Of a DNA stretch of 64,000 nt, positions 1 through 50,265 are shown one piece after another. Location: contig NC_092562.1 in the NCBI RefSeq assembly GCF_037975245.1, forward strand, positions 16,610,521-16,674,520, written 5' to 3'. Source of the stretch: Apostichopus japonicus (lineage: Eukaryota; Echinodermata; Holothuroidea; Aspidochirotida; Stichopodidae). Each line of letters opens with the position of its first letter. Within the stretch, counting starts at the first letter, position 1. The notes under the pieces are model-generated. The model saw only the letters and a program-made list of their open reading frames with translations. It had not been told where the DNA came from and did not search any database. A program made the translations under genes and the position numbers.

Positions 1-2477
1 AAATATAAACTCAAATAAATGAAAATTTATCAAACATGCGATGTCATATTCATATTTATTTATAATTTATATGAAAGGTTCCATAATAGAGGTTGCTGGA
101 ACAATTAATCACAATATAAACTTTGTTCTAGGAGCATGTAACTCTCCTATGTAATTAATATGTAAGCAATATCTACCATATTGAATTGAAACTGTCTGAG
201 TAAATAAAAAATGTGTCAATAGTTAACTGATTATTCAAATTTTCATTTCATTCTCAGTTTACAAAAAAACAAAGTTCATGCATGCTTTCTTTAGCCAGAA
301 ACATGTAGAGCCAGTTTATTGGACCCTGGGCAGAATTTTGTCAATTGGCTCACTCTTTCACTCTTCATTTCTCCATTCTGTAAACATAGTAAGACAAAGA
401 AAGAAAAAAAACACTCCAGTGTCTCCTCCATACTTCCTGGGGCTCCCTAAAGACCCTTTGCATGTAGCCCTGTCTGACCCCCTTCTTCCCTCTAGCAAGG
501 CCTGCCTGTAGAGTAACTTTCAGCTCTTGATAAAATCAAATTAGGGATGTTGACTGTTTGACCTTCTTCGGTTAGAGACTGCCAAGAGTAGTTTGCATAC
601 TACTCTGATAATGCAAGATAACACTATTACCCAGATTACAAATATACAGGCTGCCACACCCTGGCATATACGGAACAAATATAGTTGTGGCTATGCTAAT
701 AGTCGGTCATTCCAATAGTTGGTCATGCCACTGGGCCTACCGCCGCAGATCAAGAATGTGACAGCCCTTGATACTCAAAATACCGAATGTTAAGCAACAA
801 AAGGCATAACCTTACCTACTGAATAATGATGAGGAGGCACTTCCTAATATGGCAAGAAGTAACTATGTATACACTCTATTACAGTGTGTATTGAGGGGGG
901 GGGGGGGCGTTAATCATTAACTCGATTTCTGATCACATGACTGCAGGTTCTTGGTATACAGAATAGACGGTTCTGAAAGTGTTTTATTCTCACTATGGGA
1001 AAAGGTATCACAAATAAATAGTGTGAGCAGATCGTTATGAAATAAATGTAGGGGCCTATATACTTTTGTTCGGCACGTTGATTCAGAAGTGCAATATATA
1101 TCCCCATACGTTTCAAGTTGAGAAGTCGTTTCTCGTGTTCAGTTCTTATATTGACAACAGTTTATTTACTGATCATGATTCACAGTTCAGTTTAAGATAT
1201 GCCCTATTTCCTTAAGAGTTTAAGAAATATTAGTATAGTATATATCATGCCGCCGCCTAGCTTCCTCGGGCCCTATACTTTCTTTCCCAAACAGAACTTC
1301 AATTTTCAGTATCGTGATCGATGGTACCTACCCAGCAAACACAAAAAAAAATGTTTTTAAAACGTTTCGTCTTTTGTTTTGATAACGTTATTTGTGGTGT
1401 AATAAATATGTCACGAAAACGTTTTCAGGCTATTTTTTCAAAACATTTTTTCGTTAAAACATTAATATAACATTAATATCTCATAAAAACGTTATGCCGA
1501 CGTTTTTATAACACCAAATTTAATGTTATAAAAAACATATTTAAGAGGCTCTTTTAAGAATGTTCAAGTTCCTCCCATTCACAGGAAACTATCAATTTCC
1601 GCATGTCTTTGCATTTAGCGTTGTAACTCATGTATTCAATTGGCGGATATATGCATATATCCGTCCTTCCATGGAAGGCTACCCCCCCCCCCCCCTCCCC
1701 GTTTTGAAGTTGTCGCACTCCATAGATTGTACGCTACAAACATACTAACAATTTCCTAATGCACGCTTGCCGGCACCCATCACTTTTCGCTAAGGCTTTT
1801 ACAATGGTCATGATCTATACCAATACGCGGCCACCTCTCAACCGTACAAATCCTCAGTGGGATGGATTGGCCGTTCTGCCTAGTTTAAACTTTTCACTCA
1901 TTTTCTCCTGTTATGATTGTTTGTTTTCTTTCTTTGCATTGGTTGAACCTACTATTAATTTCAATCTTTGGTAACTTTTGAAATTAGAGCGAGTCTCCTT
2001 TCACCTCCCCATTCTCGCCCGCCCTCCACAGTGGCACAACCATTAATTACTTAGTTATTGTCATCACAAAGGAGTCGACGCCAATACCAGCACTTCCAAA
2101 CGATTCCAAACTAAGTTGGTTAGCTACAAATTATGATCAGGGACGCAAACACGTTTCTTCGGGAGAGGGTGATCAAATCAACTTGGAGGGCTCACCGCGA
2201 TCCCCCCCCCCCCACACAAACATATCATAGTGGGAGTATACCATAAAATATGTACTATAGTATTGTGCGTTACAGCGTGCAGGACGGTTGGGAATTTAAG
2301 TTTTCAAATGTTGAAAATGTAGCACCATATGCACAGATCTGAGCTCCGAGCATTCAAGTTTGCCGTAACCACAAATTTCTTTAGACCCCTTTCCTTGAAT
2401 GACATAACAAATATCCTCCCCTATCGCTCAGTAAAAAAAGTGATGGGGGTGGGGGGGTGAGCCTTGGAAATGATTAC
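1..2477. other. Intergenic, no gene recognised
   Basis: AT-rich DNA with short open frames that show no family resemblance, no splice-flanked exon and no RNA gene that I can see. It contains homopolymer G or C runs near 896-907, 1681-1695 and 2203-2213, and the AACGTT-rich repeat listed separately. Confidence 0.5.
1325..1556. repeat. AACGTT-rich dispersed-repeat-like block
   Basis: About 230 bp in which AACGTT or close variants recur on both strands (for example near 1361, 1385, 1420, 1490 and 1500), separated by A/T tracts. The mixed orientation gives a self-complementary, foldback-like composition. No coding frame runs through it. It looks like a decayed palindromic MITE; clear ends or target duplications were not found. 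Confidence 0.45.
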
Positions 2478-2940
2478 CAGGCGCGTATCCAGGATTTTCT
2501 AACCCGGGGGGCGCGAATTACTATCTAAGCGGAGCGCCACCATCGGTTGGCGCGCAGCGTACAAGAAATTTTCTGGTTTTGATACCACCCAGATCACCGG
2601 AAATGGCACTTCTCGGGCTTGAAAATGACCAACCAGATGTGCACTTTTGCCTGAGAACCAAGTATTTCCTAATAGTTTTTTTTCATCCATAACCTTTTTG
2701 AAGATTGTCACCAGCCACACATCATGTTCGACCTCATCGCATGTCCTGTGGATCATTGCTTTTGTAGGTGATTCTACGTCGCGGCCCACAATATCCGTCA
2801 GCCCCACTTTTCAAGGTTTTAAGCCCATTATTTGTTCAGAATTTGAAAATTCACGTTTCTCGTGATTAAACTCAATTCAAAACATACCCATAATGTTGCA
2901 CAAAATTTCATCTATGGACAACCAATATAGAAAAACCCAA

Positions 2941-3594
2941 GGGCGGCAGAAGCACTTTTAATCTGGGGGGGGGGGGGGGGCACCGACATCAAAGGGCACT
3001 TTGCAGATATTCGATTGGACTGATGCAGCCTTATATTTAGTACCATTTATAACTCTTATTGTATTTATCTTATTTGCGTATACACATCACTCCATCAACG
3101 CCCCCCCCCCCCGGCCCCCTCAAGGAAAATATGCATGCTAGCACTGCAATATCCAACAATGTGCAAATTAGGAAACATGGAACAAGTTTTCTTTTGAGAC
3201 AAAATGAGGTGAAATTATGCTAGTTGCTAATGTAGGAATCTTCCGAGTTAGAATTTATTTCTTGTTAATATCTTAACAATTTTTTTTCCATTCGAAATAG
3301 CTTTGAGTTTGACCCACAGAAATTCATTAGAAAGTCAGAGGCGTAGCCAGGATTTGCAAAGTTGTATGCACGACTATCTGAGCGGAGCGCCACCATCGGT
3401 TGGCGCGGAGCGTGCAAGAATTTTTTGGGTTTTACAAACCCCTCAGATGGCCGGAAACGGCCCTTCCCGAGTGTTCATTCTGGCCTCTTGCTAACTTGAG
3501 ACACCTAAATTTTTATGTAGAAAAAGGGCACATTTTTAACCTGAGGAAAAGTGAGGGGGGCACGTGCCCCCTGTGCCCCCCGGTTCCGCCGCCC
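2941..3594. mobile_element. 654-bp insertion with GGGCGGC inverted ends
   Basis: It begins GGGCGGCAGAAG and ends with the inverse of GGGCGGCGGAACC. Copy 2 of R1 runs straight through the corresponding point (about 25577), which marks this block as an insertion. Its interior contains long G and C runs and a segment at about 3340-3560 related to the start of R1 (GCGTAGCCAGGATTT, then the AGCGGAGCGCCACCAT block), so it is itself composite. No protein-coding content was seen. Flanking sequence is slightly rearranged relative to the empty site, so the target duplication length is uncertain. Confidence 0.55.
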
Positions 3595-4203
3595 TCCTTG
3601 AACCCCTAACAGACCGGTCAATATTGCACGAGTAGAGGGACGTGTGATGAAGAATGTGGGTCAGAAATTTTCAAAAATTCAGACACAATTAATTTCTTGG
3701 TGTACAAATATTAAAACCTCTTATAACGGCTATTATAAAACTTGGTTGAAGGAAATGAAAATATAGCAGATATTTCCGAAACCGAACAATACACACATAG
3801 GCGTAGGAGGCGGGGGGGGGGGGGTGGGGACTGCAGCCCCCAATTCGCCATTACTAATGTAAAAGAGAGTTTTAACATAATTGGACCTCGATGATTTTCT
3901 CCAACTACATAAGACATTTCGTTGTTTACATTAGCATCCCGCGGTATACTGAGCAACTTTCACGGACCGTAAGGTACACGATGGCATCTGATGTAATAAC
4001 CGATGCTTGCTTATGTGATATTGACATTAACATGTTGGAATTTTTGGTTATTTTTTCGGGCAAGTCGGACAATTTTGAGGCTGTTCATCCTGGAACGCCA
4101 TTTTCATGCTCACTGATATGATGTGATATCTGTCTGCTGTTTGCTTTACAAATTCGAACCGGCGCGTAGCAAGAAATTTGCCAAGGAAAGGGCGAAGCCT
4201 GTA

Positions 4204-4356
4204 TAGGCCATCAGCTGAAGCTCAAAATGTGGCTGTAAAATCAGTTTCGTTCCAGCAACACCGGGTCTAGACTTTTAATGCATTTTTGGGTAGTTTAATG
4301 CATCACAAACATTATATCAAAAGTTCTCCAAAAAATTTCCTGCAGTATTTTTGTAA
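4204..4356 (+). repeat. Left terminal inverted repeat of the 4.1-kb element
   Basis: It pairs with 8166-8321. Identical blocks include TAGGCCATCAGCTGAAG, TTTCGTTCCAGCAAC, CGGGTCTA, CAAAAGTTCTCCA and TTTCCTGCAGT. A gap of about 9 bp and an A/T-rich diverged stretch separate the blocks. Confidence 0.75.
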
Positions 4357-6064
4357 GAAACCCTTGAAATTGGGTATGTTATGTAGACATTACGTGCTAC
4401 GATGCTATGTATTAGGAACACATGTGCTAACGTTAGATTTGGTACAGTGGTGCATACATACCACTCTTTTCTTATATGTTTAATTACGACTGATATATTT
4501 TTTTTTGTATAATAGTTGGGTCAGGGTTACAAGAATGGTGGAAGAGGATTCTGGTCTAAGGGTCAGTGAGGGTTGTTTTCAGGCATTACAAGTTGTGCCC
4601 CCCCCCCCTCCATTTTTGCCAAAATGGTAAAAAATCACATTTTCAACTTTGAAATATGAAATACAATTTTTGCACATTATAACTTAAGGGTTTTAATTAT
4701 AAAAATGTACCACTTTTAATAAACTCAGATATAATGCTTTGTAATAAATCAAATATTTTTAGATTTTCCCCCTATGTTATGAATACATTTCGTCTGTGCA
4801 TGTATGCGTAAATATACACATATAATGAAAAGTTCCTCTCCATAATTGTTACACTCCCCATCCAAACTGTTTTACAAATGCGACCCCCTCTCCCTCTACT
4901 TTACATGTAGCTAAATCCCTAGTTACAATGAGATGTACCAATGCCCCAAGACCAGTGAGCTATTTCTTTTGTATAAATCAATATATAAGTTGGCACACTA
5001 AGACGTCATGGCATATCGTAGATGTGAAATAAAGTTATAGTCGGTATATATCCGTTACCTTAGTACTCTTTCTACAGTCTTCTGCAAAACTAGGTACTTT
5101 CTCCTTGTTACTGAAACGACATGTTCATAATTCGTATTCCTGCAAAAAGAGTTTCCAAGGGAGTTAACGCATAAAAGAAAAGATCGACAAGGTTTCGAAT
5201 GGTATTTTGAATAATAATAGTTCTATATTCTACAAATAATATGAATAATAAAGGTGAATGGTACAAATAAGTGAATAACGAAGACAGTTAACTTAAGCCC
5301 CAGATATAAAGAAATAATGTATCTATTAAGACTGGGTCGATACACTCAATGGTGTAGTAGAGCTGGGCCTTTGCGATGATTCAAGATACAGGTTCTTCAT
5401 CAAAAGGCGCGGCGCGGAATTAATAAGTGATTAAAAGTTCATCCAAGGACAGTTGTACTAGTCTTAACAGTATCCACTTCAATTCACTGCATGGAAGTCA
5501 GATATGGTATGGAAAAGGGAAAGTCTATTCCGTAGTAGAGGTGAAGACAATTAGATGAAATAAAAGTCACTAAAGACTTGAATATCCTTCAGTCAAAACT
5601 TGAACAGATGCACAGAACATATTAACAATATGAATAAAACAGGTAACGAAATGTTACGGCAAACAATAAAGAACCGTGATATTGGAACAGGGTCAGGGGC
5701 GATGGTTAAAACCTTTGACTGGTTTCAGGACGCGGTATTTGCGTCATCGCCATCAGTAAATGTAGTTGTGAATATGCAAGAGGTAAAGCATGCCCATAAC
5801 ACCCTCCTCCCCCCTTCCCATCCCCTCTCAAAAAAAGTGTGATTTGAAGAAAATGTGGATATTTATCAAAGGTGTCTGGTAGGTAGGGTAATCTATGTAA
5901 AACTACTAATAGCTAAAATGAATATATGAATAAGATCATGTTTTCTGGTTCCTTTAAACTCTGGGGAACAAAATAATGACAACATGACTTTGAAAAAGTT
6001 AACCCTCTTCACAAACTTCAAACTTTAATAAAATTTCAGACTAAGATATCAAGATTTAACACCA

Positions 6065-8018
6065 TCACAGTTCATCCTCCAAATCATCTTCCCCTGCATC
6101 AACAATCTCAACATCTTCTTGGAAGTTGCTGCAATTTCTATATTTACATAGGTCTGTACACGGTAGTTGTGCATTCATTCAGGAACATCTTCCTTTAAGA
6201 CATTTGCCGACTCTACAGCTACTGCTGACACACTGAAGCAAAGCATCTGGGTCAGGTGGCTTCGTCATCCAAGTGATTATTAGGTCATCATTTTCAAGTT
6301 TCCATCCATGTCCCTCTGGTGAGAGTGCATCAATCCTTTGCTGCAATGCCCTACTGTGAATAGCAGCCTGGTTGGTGCAGCGCTTAACATGCTGGATCAG
6401 AGCATCTTTTGTTGGTGGTAAACTCTGCTCTGAGGAGGAGATGAACAGAACACCTTGTACCATGAAATTGGATATTTTTGAGTCTCACATTTTATGATGG
6501 GGTACCAATATAATTACAATTCAGCTAGAAATATGTTGCAAATTTCTTTAATAATTTCAATGGAAAGATTAACCTGATATTGCATCTCAAAGCGTTTAGA
6601 GAATTTTTTAATTTTCCTTGGGGGAGGACCCCCATATTCCAAAAGTCCTAGATCCACCCCTGAACACTCAATGAACCACACATTGAAGAGAGTACTTTAC
6701 CTTTCAAGATCTGTATGTCTTCCTTGTCAAGAATTGTATCTAGTTTCTTCAACATAGAGAGTGGTACCTCACTTCAATGGCAACACGGTCTTTTCCTCTA
6801 ATATTCATAAAATCTGGGCTCATCTTTTTTCCGCTCTGCTGCTTGTCGAAGCAATACCTTAATAAAATGAAATAAAAAAAGCAAATTGTTTTGCATTTTC
6901 TGTTGATCAAAATGTAAGTTTCAACAAATAAGAACTAAGACAATTTTATTTATATACCATGTGATCTGCTCATCTTCTATGGACAAACAAAGACACATTC
7001 AAATTTTGCAAACCAGTGTCATGCAAAAAAGAATTAAAACAGGCTTTTTTTTGACAGTACAGTACATTATCTCTTAATGTTATGGTTTAAATTATACAAT
7101 GGTAGATTATATCTGTTACTAATAATAAAGGAGACAGATACTTGTTCATTTTGGTAAAGCTAGACAGGCTGACCATAAGACCTTGCAAACCTAACCTTAT
7201 TGCACCTTTGTTACACTTATTTTTCTAACTAATATAATATCTCTATCATTCAAATAAAGGGCCACAGTAAGAAAACTATGAAGCCTGTATTTAACACTTA
7301 GGCTAGTGCCCCAGATGGAGAATTTGAAACAAATTTCCGTTCCTACCACCTTATAACAAAACAAATCAGATGACCATGCCACTAATTATATTATGTTCAG
7401 GTCCAACACTGTGCCCTTTGACTTGGATTCTATCCCTCAAGAGCTACTGATCTTGCATTATGCAACTTCTCTGAACACTTCAACTATGCCACAGAAGTAC
7501 AAGTAGAGTCGTGTAGTATGCTTAGGCTTACCTCCATCGAAAGTCTCTGCATGCTGCAGCTTGTCCTGCACCCGTTTGCAACGCCGAGTAATGTATTGTT
7601 TCTTTTCCCACATATAATAAATTGAACCGGCAATACACCAGAGCTTCTGCTTGGTTTCCTCGATCTTTTCCGTCAATTCTTCGTTTAAAATCATAAGTTG
7701 TCTCCTCTGGTACTGTCCGTTTTCTTGCAGCAATGTGCTTGCTATCAATGAACCGCCTGTAACACTTATCATGGAACCCCATCATACTATGCTGTTGAAC
7801 ACACGCTTGATCGTAGTAGGCCATGGAGTAATCAGTAGTACGGCGATATCACTGTCTCCGCCGCTGAGATTAAGCCGATCTTTAGCGCAGGAAGTAACTT
7901 TAGTCCATCGTTTATTCGTCAGTGCCTTGACTGCTTCAAATTTTACAGATTCAATGTGGACTGAGCACTGTAGATTTCCGTGTGTCGGAGACTGACTAGC
8001 GCCCGTGGGAGCCGCCAT
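6065..8018 (-). pseudogene. Broken transposon gene, Academ-like, minus strand
   Basis: Three coding remnants are visible. (1) 8018-7532 starts with an ATG (MAAPTGAS), reads LQCSVHIESVKFEAVKAL, then shifts frame near 7824 into FHDKCYRRFIDSKHIAARKR and again near 7700 into LWCIAGSIYYMWEKKQYI. It ends at a good donor (GGAG|GTAAGC). (2) About 6860-6704 has NIRGKDRVAIEVRYHS, with frame breaks on both sides, and a GTAAAG donor. (3) 6463-6065 reads SEQSLPPTKDALIQHVKRCT, GHGWKLENDDLIITWM and a Cys-rich tail with LPCTDLCKYRNCSN, ending in an acidic EDDLEDEL. In part 3 an in-frame TGA (6179-6181) sits where the tail pattern expects a cysteine. The set matches, from memory, a large multicopy family of marine animals with CxxC, YHxxCY and PPT-type motifs that also has a PIN/XPG-like domain; that middle is absent here. 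Calling it a pseudogene is well supported by the frame breaks; the family name is less certain. Confidence 0.65.
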
Positions 8019-8165
8019 GTTTGTTGTTTTCTACAAAGATTGCACACAGAACTCATGGCTCATTGGACAATTCATATCACATGGTACAGATATCTCACTG
8101 GCGCACAACTTTTGAACGTAAAACGGCAGGTTTCTTAACATACGCAATAAAAATATAGTTCGATC

Positions 8166-8321
8166 TTTCGAGCGGAATTGCAAAAAAACTGCAGGAAAGT
8201 ACATGGAGAACTTTTGGATCATTAATCTTAGTTAATTTATGTATTCAATGCTGTAGAGAAATTTTAGACCCGCAGTTGCTGGAACGAAACAAGCGAATTT
8301 CGACCTTCAGCTGATGGCCTA
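8166..8321 (-). repeat. Right terminal inverted repeat of the 4.1-kb element
   Basis: Inverse of 4204-4356, in the same order of blocks. The putative start codon of the internal gene lies about 150 bp inside it, the usual arrangement for a DNA transposon gene. Confidence 0.75.
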
Positions 8322-8889
8322 GTAAGCAAATTATCTAAGCGTAGCTCCTCCATTAGTTGGCGCGAAGCGTATAAGAAAATTTTGGCTGAAAATGCCTCCC
8401 AGATCGCTGGAAATGGCACTACCCAGGACCATTTGTTGGCGCGAAGCGTACAAGCAAATTTTGGCCGAAAATGCCTCCCAGATCGCTGGAAATGACACTT
8501 CCCAGGCCTTGTAAGTTGCATCTAAGCACTTTCTATTTTGAAATTACTAGAGATATCATAAAAAAAATATGCTGATGGGGGGGGGGGCAGTCGCCCCCTT
8601 CCCGAAATTTGTCATGTTCCCCGACGACACGTACGGTCGAGTTCGAGACCAGCCACAGTTGGTTTCATAGCACAATTCTACAATTGATTAAGGCGTATAT
8701 ACACACACACGCTTTATGATAGACCATATATAGAATATATAGATCATGAGTGAGAGAAGAAAAATGGAAACGTCAACATTGAGTTGTCGGTGTAAGGGGT
8801 AGGGTGAGGCACACGCCTCTTCCGAAGTCCTTGATCCGTCACTGGCTACCCTGTGTATATAATAGGGATCAGCGCTGTAATAATGTCAC

Positions 8890-9047
8890 TGTTCCTCTTT
8901 CTCTTCCCGGTTTCTTGGCGTTTTTCTTTAACTCCCTCCTTTTCTCTCTTTCTTCTTTTTCTTTTCCCTTCCTTCCTCTCCTCCTCCTCTTTTTCCCCCT
9001 CTTTTTTCCTTTTTTCTTCTCTTTTTTTTCTCTCCTCTTTTTCTTAC
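8890..9047 (+). repeat. Pyrimidine-rich tract in R1
   Basis: About 150 bp that is almost pure C/T on the plus strand, ending in CTTACCCGGGGG. The same tract is at 26812-26972 in R1 copy 2, so it belongs to the repeat. It produces long low-complexity frames on both strands that are not genes. Confidence 0.7.
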
Positions 9048-9091
9048 CCGGGGGGCGCGCGCCCCCAACGCCCCCCCTGGATACGCACCTG

Positions 9092-22526: not shown

Positions 22527-23846
22527 TGTGCACCTTAGCACCCTGTGGACGGGTGGCCCCCTGGACGCTTCAGTGCACTGTTGTGCACCTTAGCACCCTG
22601 TGGACGGGTGGCCTCCTGGACGCTTCAGTGCACTGTTGTGCACCTTAGCACCATGTGGACGGGTGGCCCCCTGGACGCTTCAGTGCACTGTTGTGCACCT
22701 TAGCACCCTGTGGACGGGTGGCCTCCTGGACGCTTCAGTGCACTGTTGTGCACCTTAGCACCATGTGGACGGGTGGCCCCCTGGACGCTTCAGTGCACTG
22801 TTGTGCACCTTAGCACCCTGTGGACGGGTGGCCTCCTGGACGCTTCAGTGCACTGTTGTGCACCTTAGCACCCTGTGGACGGGTGGCCTCCTGGACGCTT
22901 CAGTGCACTGTTGTGCACCTTAGCACCATGTGGACGGGTGGCCCCCTGGACGCTTCAGTGCACTGTTGTGCACCTTAGCACCCTGTGGACGGGTGGCCTC
23001 CTGGACGCTTCAGTGCACTGTTGTGCACCTTAGCACCATGTGGACGGGTGGCCCCCTGGACGCTTCAGTGCACTGTTGTGCACCTTAGCACCCTGTGGAC
23101 GGGTGGCCTCCTGGACGCTTCAGTGCACTGTTGTGCACCTTAGCACCATGTGGACGGGTGGCCCCCTGGACGCTTCAGTGCACTGTTGTGCACCTTAGCA
23201 CCCTGTGGACGGGTGGCCTCCTGGACGCTTCAGTGCACTGTTGTGCACCTTAGCACCATGTGGACGGGTGGCCCCCTGGACGCTTCAGTGCACTGTTGTG
23301 CACCTTAGCACCCTGTGGACGGGTGGCCTCCTGGACGCTTCAGTGCACTGTTGTGCACCTTAGCACCATGTGGACGGGTGGCCCCCTGGACGCTTCAGTG
23401 CACTGTTGTGCACCTTAGCACCCTGTGGACGGGTGGCCTCCTGGACGCTTCAGTGCACTGTTGTGCACCTTAGCACCATGTGGACGGGTGGCCCCCTGGA
23501 CGCTTCAGTGCACTGTTGTGCACCTTAGCACCCTGTGGACGGATGGCCCCCTGGACGCTTCATTGCACTGTTGTGCACCTTAGCACCCTGTGGACGGGTG
23601 GCCCCCTGGACGCTTCAGTGCACTGCTGTGCACCTTAGCACCCTGTGGACGGGTGGCCCCCTGGACGCTTCATTGCACTGTTGTGCACCTTAGCACCCTG
23701 TTGACGGATGGCCTCCTGGACGCTTCAGTGCACTGTTGTGCACCTTAGCACCCTGTGGACGGGTGGCCCCCTGGACGCTTCAGTGCACTGTTGTGCACCT
23801 TAGCACCCTGTGGACGGATGGCCCCCTGGACGCTTCAGTGCACTTT
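22527..23846 (+). repeat. 55-bp minisatellite, 24 copies
   Basis: Units start TGTGCACCTTAGCACC and end CTTCAGTGCACTGT, with the first at 22527 and the last at 23792, a spacing of exactly 23 x 55 bp. Copies 2-18 alternate between two types: CCCTG with GGCCTCC, and CCATG with GGCCCCC. This makes 110-bp dimers, with one break where copies 6 and 7 are both the first type. Copies 19-24 are more varied (GGATGG, CATTGCAC, TTGACGG). 55 is not a multiple of 3 and TAG occurs in every unit, so no long frame exists. G+C content is far above the surroundings. Confidence 0.97.
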
Positions 23847-25115: not shown

Positions 25116-27014
25116 CCGGCGTATCCAGGATTTTCTTACCCGGGGGTGCGAATTACTATCTAAGCGGAGCGCCACCATAAGTTGGTGCGCAGCGTACAAG
25201 AACATTTCTGGTGTTTATACCCCCCAGATCACCGGAAATGACACTTCTCGGACTTGAAAATGACAAACCAGATGTGCACTTTTGCCTGAGAACCAAGTAT
25301 TTCCCAATAGTTTTTTTTCCCATCCATAACCTTTTTGAAGATTGTCACCAGTCACACATCATGTTCGACCTCATCGCATGTCCTGTGGATCATTGCATTT
25401 GTAGGTGATTCTACGTAACGGCCCACCGTGAATACCCGACAGCCCCACTTTTCAAGGTTTTCAGCCCATTATTTGTTCAGAATTTGAAAATTCCCATTTC
25501 TCGTGAATAAACTCACTTCAAAACATACCCATAATGTTGCAAAAAATGTCATCTATGGACAACCAATATAGAAAACCTCCTTCAACCCCTAATAGACCGG
25601 TCAAAATTACACGAGTAGAGGGAAGTATGATGAGGAAATTTTCGAAAATTCAGACACAGTTAATTTATTGGTTCACAAATATTAAAACCTCCTATAACGG
25701 CTATTATAAAACTTGGTTGAAGGAAATAAAAAAAAATAGCAGATATTTCCGAAACCAAGCAATACACACGTAGGAGGCGGGGGGGAGGGGCTGCAGCCCC
25801 TCCAACCAAATATTTTGTTCCTGAAAATTAGGGCAATATACTGTGAATTTTTCGGGCACCTACTGAAAGAAAAAAAAATTGCAATGATGTAGCTAAAGGA
25901 AATGAATATTTTATAAAATATCTCCTTGATAATTAAAATAAAGTTCTAAGCTTGGCCGACTAATTCGCCATTACTAATGTAAAAGAGAATTTGACATAAT
26001 TGGACCTCCATGCTTTTTCTCCATCACATAAGACATTTCGACTGCGCAACTTCCACGGACCGTTCGGTACACCATGGCATGCGATGTAATAACTGATGCT
26101 TGCTTATATGATATTGACATGTTGAACGCGCGCGAAGCGCGCGAAAAATTTGGTTATATTTTTCGGGCAAGTCGTTACAGCCCCCCAAATCAAATTTGGC
26201 TCCTACGCCTTTGACTACACACATCGACAGTTTTGAGGCTGTTCAGGAGCCGCCATTTTCATGCTGCACTGAAATGATGTGATATCTGCTGTTTGCTATA
26301 CAAATTCGAACAGGCGCGTAGCGAAGAATTTGCCAAGGGAGGGGCGAAGCCTGTAGGCAAACTATCTAAGCGTAGCGCAGCGCCACCATAAGTTGGCGCG
26401 AAGCGTACAAGAAAATTTTGGCTGAAAATGCCTTCCAGATCGCTGGAAATGGCACTACCCAGGCCTTGTAAGTTGCATCTAAGCATTTTCTATTTTGAAA
26501 TTACTAGCGATATCATAAAAAAATATGCCCGGGGGGGGCGATCTCCCCCTTCCCGAAATGCGTCATGTTCCCCGACGACATAGCACAATTGTTTAAGGCG
26601 TCCATACACATACAGGCGTTATGATAGACCATAATATAGTATACATATAGATACATTAGTGAGAGAGGAAAAATGGAAACGTCAAAAATGGAGTTGTTGG
26701 TGTATGGGGTAGGCCGGGTGAGGCGCACGCCCCTTCCGAAATCCTCGATCCGTCACTGGATACCCGGCCATGTGTATATAATAGGGATCAGCGCTGTAAT
26801 GATGTCACTGTTCCTCTTTCTCTTCCCGGTGTCTTGGCGTTTTTCTTTTACTCCCTCCTTTTTCTCTCTTTCTTCTTTTTCTTTTCCCTTCCTTCCTCTC
26901 CTCTTCCTCTTTTCCCCCCTCTTTTTCGCTTTTTTCTTCTCTTTTTTTCTCTCCTCTTTTCCTTACCCGGGGGTCGCGCGCCCCCAACGCCCCCCCCCCC
27001 TGGATACGCGCCTG
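25116..27014 (+). mobile_element. R1 repeat, copy 2, without the large insertions
   Basis: The left end reads CCGGCGTATCCAGG and the right end is the inverse of CAGGCGCGTATCCAGG. It is collinear with copy 1 (2478-9091) over about 1.9 kb. It holds a 25768-26208 block related to the 592-bp hAT-like element, the pyrimidine tract at 26812-26972, and the empty GTA site at 26353-26355. Open frames at 26673-27082 and on the other strand follow the pyrimidine tract and are not genes. Confidence 0.75.
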
Positions 27015-40600: not shown

Positions 40601-42033
40601 TGCCACACAGTTATTGCATCAAACGAACATGGTTTTGTGAACAATGACTGCTGTGTATTTGTTTAGCAGTTCAGTCATACTTTCAAAACAAATAGTGATG
40701 CGGCTCTGGATAAATAATTCCCTGGTAGCCACTGTGGCCTAGATAATGTAGGTCCACTGTATGCCCTATATCATTCTTGTAAGTTAGATTTAGATACTTG
40801 GTTCAAAAGGAATTTATTCAAGACCCATTCTAACCAAGGAAGTATGCCTTGTCCTTCTTACACTGTATGGCATACACTGTATCCATGTTTAGGGACATTT
40901 GTGACAGTGATAATGAAGTCAAACATGCCTAGCCTCATCAAAAATAAGCATATGATAGTTCGTTTTACAATGATTCAGACCTGTCAACCTGTTTGACCCC
41001 AAAATAGGGAGAATAACATTTTTTCAGGGCCAAAAAAGAGGGAGAACTAGGGGGAAATAGGGAGGTTGGTAATTTTCAACTGAAATGATATAAATACTCC
41101 TAAATAAGTATAGTCTACTTATGCAATACAGTGAGAGAATCATCCAATCAGTGTTTCTTGTTGTAGTTTAATTTACAGCAGCTCGCTTCGCTTTCTACAG
41201 GGTTTCTTCAGTAGGCTTCCATTTGAAACAGGGAACAGTGGACTCTGGGTACTGTGACTTCTTGGCTAGTATGCTAGATAGAGTCCCATCAAGCTTGAGA
41301 CTTAACTGACTATCTGTCTTGTTCTTGCGAACTACACTGAATATGGTTGATTGAATGTAACCATTTGTGATATCATAACAGTAAAATTTCTTCCAAAGCT
41401 TAACTTTGCTATTATAATCGAATCAATTTATCCTGGAACATGATACATAGGAATAATACTGTCAAATTTCTCTGTGTTTTCAAATTTTGACCAAATGCAA
41501 TTTTTCTTTAACAATATTTTTTTTCCTCTTTGATTAAGTGAGTTAAATAAAAAAATATTAAAAATCACCAGATCAGCATTCACTAAGCATCACCAAATCT
41601 GACGATTGAATATCTTCAAAGTGCTAAAAGGATTGTGTTTTTGACCTAAAGACCTAAATATGTGCAAATTTCATATTTGTTTTTATTAAGCAGTCAACTT
41701 TAGCCAATGCAGTATCCCTTTAAGACCTGTTTAAAAAATGTGTGGTGGGTTTTCTGCCTAAGAGTAATTTGGCCTAAAAGTTGCACTATGATCACTTCAA
41801 CCCTTTCTTGCAATGATTATGCGTGCTACAACTGTGTGGAATAGAATGCCATATCTTTGTTCATAAATAAACCTTACCTTTGAAAACGATAGAAACCACG
41901 ATAGAAGAAAAACAAAAAGTAGGTTACAGTGCAGAACATTGATAGAATATATAGTAATTAGATCTAGCTGTAATTGAAGAGCTCTGTATTCTGTCATGGT
42001 TCTACAACTTTCCATTTGGTTTTCCTTCTTCAG
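37683..42033. other. Intergenic, possible AOPEP leader exon near 40160-40235
   Basis: No coding exon recognised. Because the first AOPEP coding exon is preceded by an acceptor at 42032-42033, a non-coding first exon is expected. One candidate ends at a CACTAG|GTACGA donor at 40235, in a stretch richer in CG dinucleotides than its surroundings. A low-copy repeat-like segment at about 40975-41070 has CAGACCTGTCAACCTG and AGGGAGAA-type runs. Confidence 0.35.
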
Positions 42034-42043
42034 AAATTCACAG

Positions 42044-50265
<8,222 letters not shown>

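Follow-up and report, generated by a model that had tools for sequence, protein, structure and literature searches.

The 4.1-kb element and its boundaries in the window

The window, a 64,000-nucleotide stretch of the Apostichopus japonicus genome, contains a 4,118-bp element at positions 4204-8321, with its gene remnant on the minus strand and its limits defined by its ends, a target-site duplication, an empty site and further copies in the genome. The element opens with TAGGCCATCAGCTGAAG and closes with the reverse complement of TAGGCCATCAGCTGAAG, and in local alignment these 17 identical base pairs continue into imperfect inverted similarity out to about 150 bp (left end 4204-4356, plus strand; right end 8178-8321, minus strand). 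The inverted ends of about 150 bp described in the earlier note were recovered, identical over the outermost 17 bp and imperfect over the remainder, and the GTA that it had placed on both sides of the element is present at 4201-4203 and 8322-8324. Allowing up to 3 mismatches, the 17-mer occurs in only two places within the 64-kb window, which are the two ends of the element, while shuffled versions of the window gave a mean of 0.16 occurrences, with two or more in 3 of 100 shuffles.

The element interrupts one of two copies of a host repeat. Aligning copy 1 (2478-9091) with copy 2 (25116-27014) by blastn showed that copy 1 is split by the element and that copy 2 is empty, carrying a single GTA at 26353-26355 without insertion, in agreement with the natural empty site proposed before. 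As TA is found both at the end of the flank and at the start of the element, a single site leaves the boundary ambiguous by one to two bases. This ambiguity, between a TA and a GTA duplication, was settled by the copies elsewhere in the genome, which confirmed the boundaries. The two host repeat copies show about 7-16% divergence in the aligned blocks. By eye, the host repeat has inverted ends of its own, resembling CAGGCGCGTATCC, and its copy 2 may have ATACG on both flanks, a match that copy 1 does not show. Elsewhere in the window, a tandem array with a 55-bp period lies at 22527-23844, its shifted copies being about 96-98.5% alike, and open frames on the plus strand at 41996-49460 resemble exons of an aminopeptidase gene.

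Copies across the genome and decay of the gene

The host assembly (671.6 Mb in 35 contigs) was searched for further copies. The left 197 bp of the element, used as query, gave 265 candidates; the 40 that were scored are without exception 99-100% identical. The exact 17-mer was found 112 times in forward and 120 times in reverse orientation genome-wide, while the control pattern, the 17-mer read backwards, was found in neither orientation. Of these 232 exact ends, the first 100 in the list comprise 39 convergent pairs and 22 unpaired ends, with 36 of the 39 pairs spaced by 3.8-4.6 kb and the others by 1.4, 7.7 and 11.6 kb. In viral contigs (L001-L004) the 17-mer also has matches, but these cover just 17-18 bases and are probably due to chance; protein searches of viral contigs confirmed no relative.

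Besides the window copy, 20 copies were read whole and 8 more at both ends. One of them, L013, was not counted towards the duplications, as it shares its flanks with L005; the two copies (G000:C23 near 7746795 and 8036904) lie 290 kb apart with the same 12-base flanks, which is a segmental or assembly duplication. The 3-bp duplication that the earlier note had read from the single insertion held up on inspection of the flanks in 27 of 28 independent insertions, window included. These duplications lie outside the TA...TA ends and vary in sequence (GTA, GTT, CAA, GGT, CCT and others), and the one exception, L024, shows only a 2-bp match. A weak target preference is seen as a C two bases left of the duplication center in 15 of 27. 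Two further copies on contig C8 (G000:C8 33933941-33938531 and 34895864-34900454) are both exactly 4,591 bp long and sit 0.96 Mb apart, and both have a C-terminal remnant without a stop.

The 21 whole copies (the window copy plus L013-L032) differ from their majority consensus by 0.34-1.04%, with the window copy at 0.85%, and they sort into a few linked subfamilies. With about 7-16% between its two copies, the host repeat long predates the spread of the 4.1-kb family. The gene is already broken in the consensus of these 21 copies, its coding remnants lying in differing frames. In the window, on the minus strand, a frameshifted N-terminal first coding part is found at 7531-8018, where a full-length relative (described below) has a single open frame of 181 aa; a second frameshifted part lies at 6752-6857, with a corresponding tblastn match in that relative; and a TGA stop at 6179-6181, shared by all 21 whole copies, occupies a cysteine position of a CXC-like domain. 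Searching the genome with the C-terminal remnant, 150 of 336 candidates were scored, and 109 of the 150 were 91% or more identical across 112 or more of the 121 residues. Among these 109 near-complete matches, 100 have at least one TGA, 8 have no stop and 1 has TAG only, and the longest open frame around a match is 173 aa. A broken consensus combined with such short frames indicates that the amplified form, as far as it has been read, makes no complete transposase. The multi-exon, cysteine-rich gene suggested in the earlier note is thus right in kind, but the window copy carries a decayed remnant without the catalytic core and, beyond what that note had foreseen, represents a defunct, internally deleted member of a large and young family. 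We considered reading the TGA as selenocysteine and rejected it: in the full-length relative the TGA stands further upstream in the frame, where the 4.1-kb remnant has glycine, and by eye a second relative, P0001, has cysteines throughout its CXC domain.

A full-length relative and its encoded protein

The full-length relative is 8,354 bp long (G000:C16, minus strand; L053, L055), has the same 17-bp ends and is flanked by an ATA duplication. By blastn, the window copy matches it on the minus strand in three long blocks: 6627-8321 corresponds to relative positions 1-1717 (85.1%), 5805-6461 to 6805-7462 (89.3%; this block contains the C-terminal coding remnant at 6068-6461) and 4204-5104 to 7457-8354 (83.7%). 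Between the first two, 165 bp of filler (6462-6626) stand where the relative has 5,087 bp (1718-6804) holding the core and the nuclease region, and between the second and third lies a 700-bp segment (5105-5804) without counterpart in the relative. The outer 160 bp of the relative agree with the 4.1-kb consensus in 156 of 160 and 150 of 160 columns, compared with 84-90% for the three long blocks, and from these nearly unchanged outer ends we infer that both were kept for one transposase.

The 1,164-aa frame of the relative (P0002) was compared with two remoter relatives, P0001 (from L054; 46% identical to P0002) and an open 1,466-aa frame in L059, all three being large proteins in which XPG/FEN-like nuclease motifs accompany a putative transposase core. 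L059 matches the relative in three separate places, so the gene probably consists of several exons. The L059 contig (JAJRVU010000273.1), whose 1,466-aa frame is uninterrupted and open at its 5' end, is filed in a Planctomycetota bin and probably represents eukaryotic contamination of that bin. By eye, a frame resembling reverse transcriptase (L057) lies beside the L054 element.

In P0001 the C-terminal CXC domain, of tesmin/TSO1-like type, clears the Pfam cut-off (25.3 versus 23.5 bits), and the protein matches LIN54 in PDB with an E-value of 0.00059; with 10.0 bits in L059 and 9.1 bits in the window remnant, the same CXC model stays below cut-off there, and Pfam on fragments of the window copy gave nothing above cut-off. 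A chromatin assembly factor, the best PDB match of the window's C-terminal remnant (E 0.0054, with LIN54 at 0.13), was set aside as a presumed match of composition. In the middle of the protein, matches below the Pfam cut-off point weakly to DUF6589 (E 0.003 in L059 and 0.1 in P0002), a family of unknown function whose name does not occur in the papers searched. Pfam recognized no transposase family in the relatives, and listed neither a helicase nor a Harbinger family for them; no Pfam family was listed for L058, which is a close copy of L054.

Toward the C-terminus, seven acidic positions are invariant in the three proteins and follow by eye the XPG/FEN order, one of them being D where FEN-1 has E; we take their roles and order to be those of XPG/FEN nucleases. 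The nuclease of AcademX elements is of XPG type. Searching PDB with a three-sequence profile of this region returned five distinct sequences at E ≤10, all of the XPG/FEN family, with E-values short of usual significance (GEN1 0.26, EXO1 0.74-0.77). Against four FEN-1 proteins, the profile compared in local mode reached a score of 23.87 (P 0.022), which 2 of 300 column shuffles attained (mean 15.2; reversed alignment 15.98); a comparison with one FEN-1 alone yielded P 0.15, and global profile comparison with FEN-1 was empty (P 0.92). Whole-protein PDB searches of the relatives listed no XPG/FEN chain at E ≤10, Pfam XPG_I matched at other loci only, and a single-sequence structure model of the L059 nuclease region was unusable (mean pLDDT 37.1). 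The nuclease assignment is putative.

A TGA closes the P0002 frame before the CXC domain is reached. Searching the genome with P0002, where 40 of 507 candidates were scored, returned the relative itself at 100%, a next match by score of 44% and partial matches of at most 50%, so that one core-bearing copy of the 4.1-kb family stands among the scored candidates, a number that is not a census. No intact source copy was seen among the core-bearing copies read (n = 1, with the TGA before the CXC domain). Another locus (G000:C8:38717451), absent from the P0002 list, is 82% identical in the C-terminal remnant and has a 293-aa frame with one TAA. Frames of 1,551-1,572 aa are found at eight other loci, on G000:C8, C9, C15, C18, C19 and C20, with 31-44% identity; in seven the matched stretch contains no stop, and some score equally. 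These features suggest recently active full-length elements.

Classification and mobilization of the family

PIF/Harbinger elements make 3-bp duplications of the TWA type and encode a Harbinger transposase; by contrast, the duplications here vary in sequence. Other lineages were compared through published descriptions. In PMC10045372, AcademX is described with 3-4 bp duplications and a nuclease, and AcademH with 9-10 bp duplications and a helicase. The 4.1-kb family resembles AcademX as described there in its 3-bp duplications (ATA in the 8,354-bp relative) and in the nuclease motifs encoded by the element, although the window copy itself has lost both core and nuclease; with AcademH it would have the superfamily name in common, but differs in duplication length (3 bp against 9-10 bp) and in the helicase of that group, for which the relatives gave no Pfam family. 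IS3EU has the same TA...TA ends (PMC10045372), but its duplications are given as 6 bp (PMC10045372 and PMC12730594). According to PMC12730594, EnSpm/CACTA ends are CAC...GTG and PlavakaB ends are CATCA...TGATG, whereas the copies read here have TAGGCC...GGCCTA, with TAGGC and GCCTA in every copy and CATCA lying 5 bases inside rather than terminal. The other superfamilies compared differ in ends or duplication length except Zator, which, compared by description, agrees in its 3-bp duplication length (PMC10045372).

Based on duplication length and nuclease motifs, and with AcademX known here by description, the family is most likely Academ-like, of the AcademX type. The Academ assignment of the earlier note accordingly gains from the 3-bp duplications and the relative with nuclease motifs, both of which fit AcademX as outlined in PMC10045372, but it stays unproven with nuclease statistics that are modest. 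It is unlikely, though worth weighing, that the same non-autonomous burst belongs to another or undescribed superfamily having 3-bp duplications, a nuclease-like region and a CXC domain: the core yields only sub-threshold Pfam matches, to DUF6589, and none to a transposase family, while the comparison with Academ is by description alone; however, duplication length and nuclease together agree with that AcademX description, and neither AcademH with its 9-10 bp duplications and helicase nor IS3EU with its 6 bp fits.

We consider it probable that the copies stem from a recent burst in which an Academ-like family of AcademX type, a cut-and-paste DNA transposon that is non-autonomous and internally deleted, was moved in trans. 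An ancestor of about 8.4 kb would have lost about 5.1 kb holding the transposase core and nuclease region, with the shortened form retaining both ends and being multiplied by a transposase made elsewhere in the genome. As suggested by the ends and the duplications, this transposase would bind the inverted ends, excise the element and reinsert it with a 3-bp stagger, and the nuclease may trim ends or flaps. Maize Ds is an internally deleted non-autonomous element that has kept its ends, lost its core and grown into a family larger than its source. The 4.1-kb family is alike in all three respects, but Ds belongs to another superfamily, and in the present family a single deletion form prevails among the copies read, with gene remnants retained.

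Which transposase mobilizes the family today bears on this scheme. We think it improbable that the enzyme is supplied by some remoter family, one whose long frame is uninterrupted, instead of by the closest relative. The 1,551-1,572-aa frames at eight loci, seven free of stops in the matched stretch, would supply such a source, and the closest core copy read stops early; however, the cores of those loci are just 31-44% identical, the closest relative has ends that hardly differ from the 4.1-kb consensus, and the L056-L054-L057 stretch, which represents the P0001 family, has no pair of 17-bp ends at up to 4 mismatches (one forward occurrence at 4 mismatches, none in reverse). A more specific proposal, which we offer as doubtful, is that transposase, FEN-type nuclease and CXC DNA-binding domain form one polypeptide whose nuclease trims ends at excision or insertion, and that it multiplied the dead 4.1-kb derivative to about 100 copies while core-bearing copies of the same family dwindled to very few and perhaps to a single one, with a frame stopping before the CXC domain. 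Spread by segmental duplication instead of transposition is very improbable, as it would suit the L005/L013 pair with its common flanks and the pair of 4,591-bp copies on C8 (judged from position and length only) but is refuted for the 28 insertions read by their different flanks, 27 of them with 3-bp duplications, and is opposed by the empty site inside the window.

To our knowledge, few DNA transposons of the Academ-like group have been characterized experimentally. In this one assembly, a young and homogeneous set of substrate copies whose ends are defined is joined by an empty site, a full-length relative and eight long-frame loci, and with this material at hand, both mobilization in trans and the purpose of the nuclease become directly testable.
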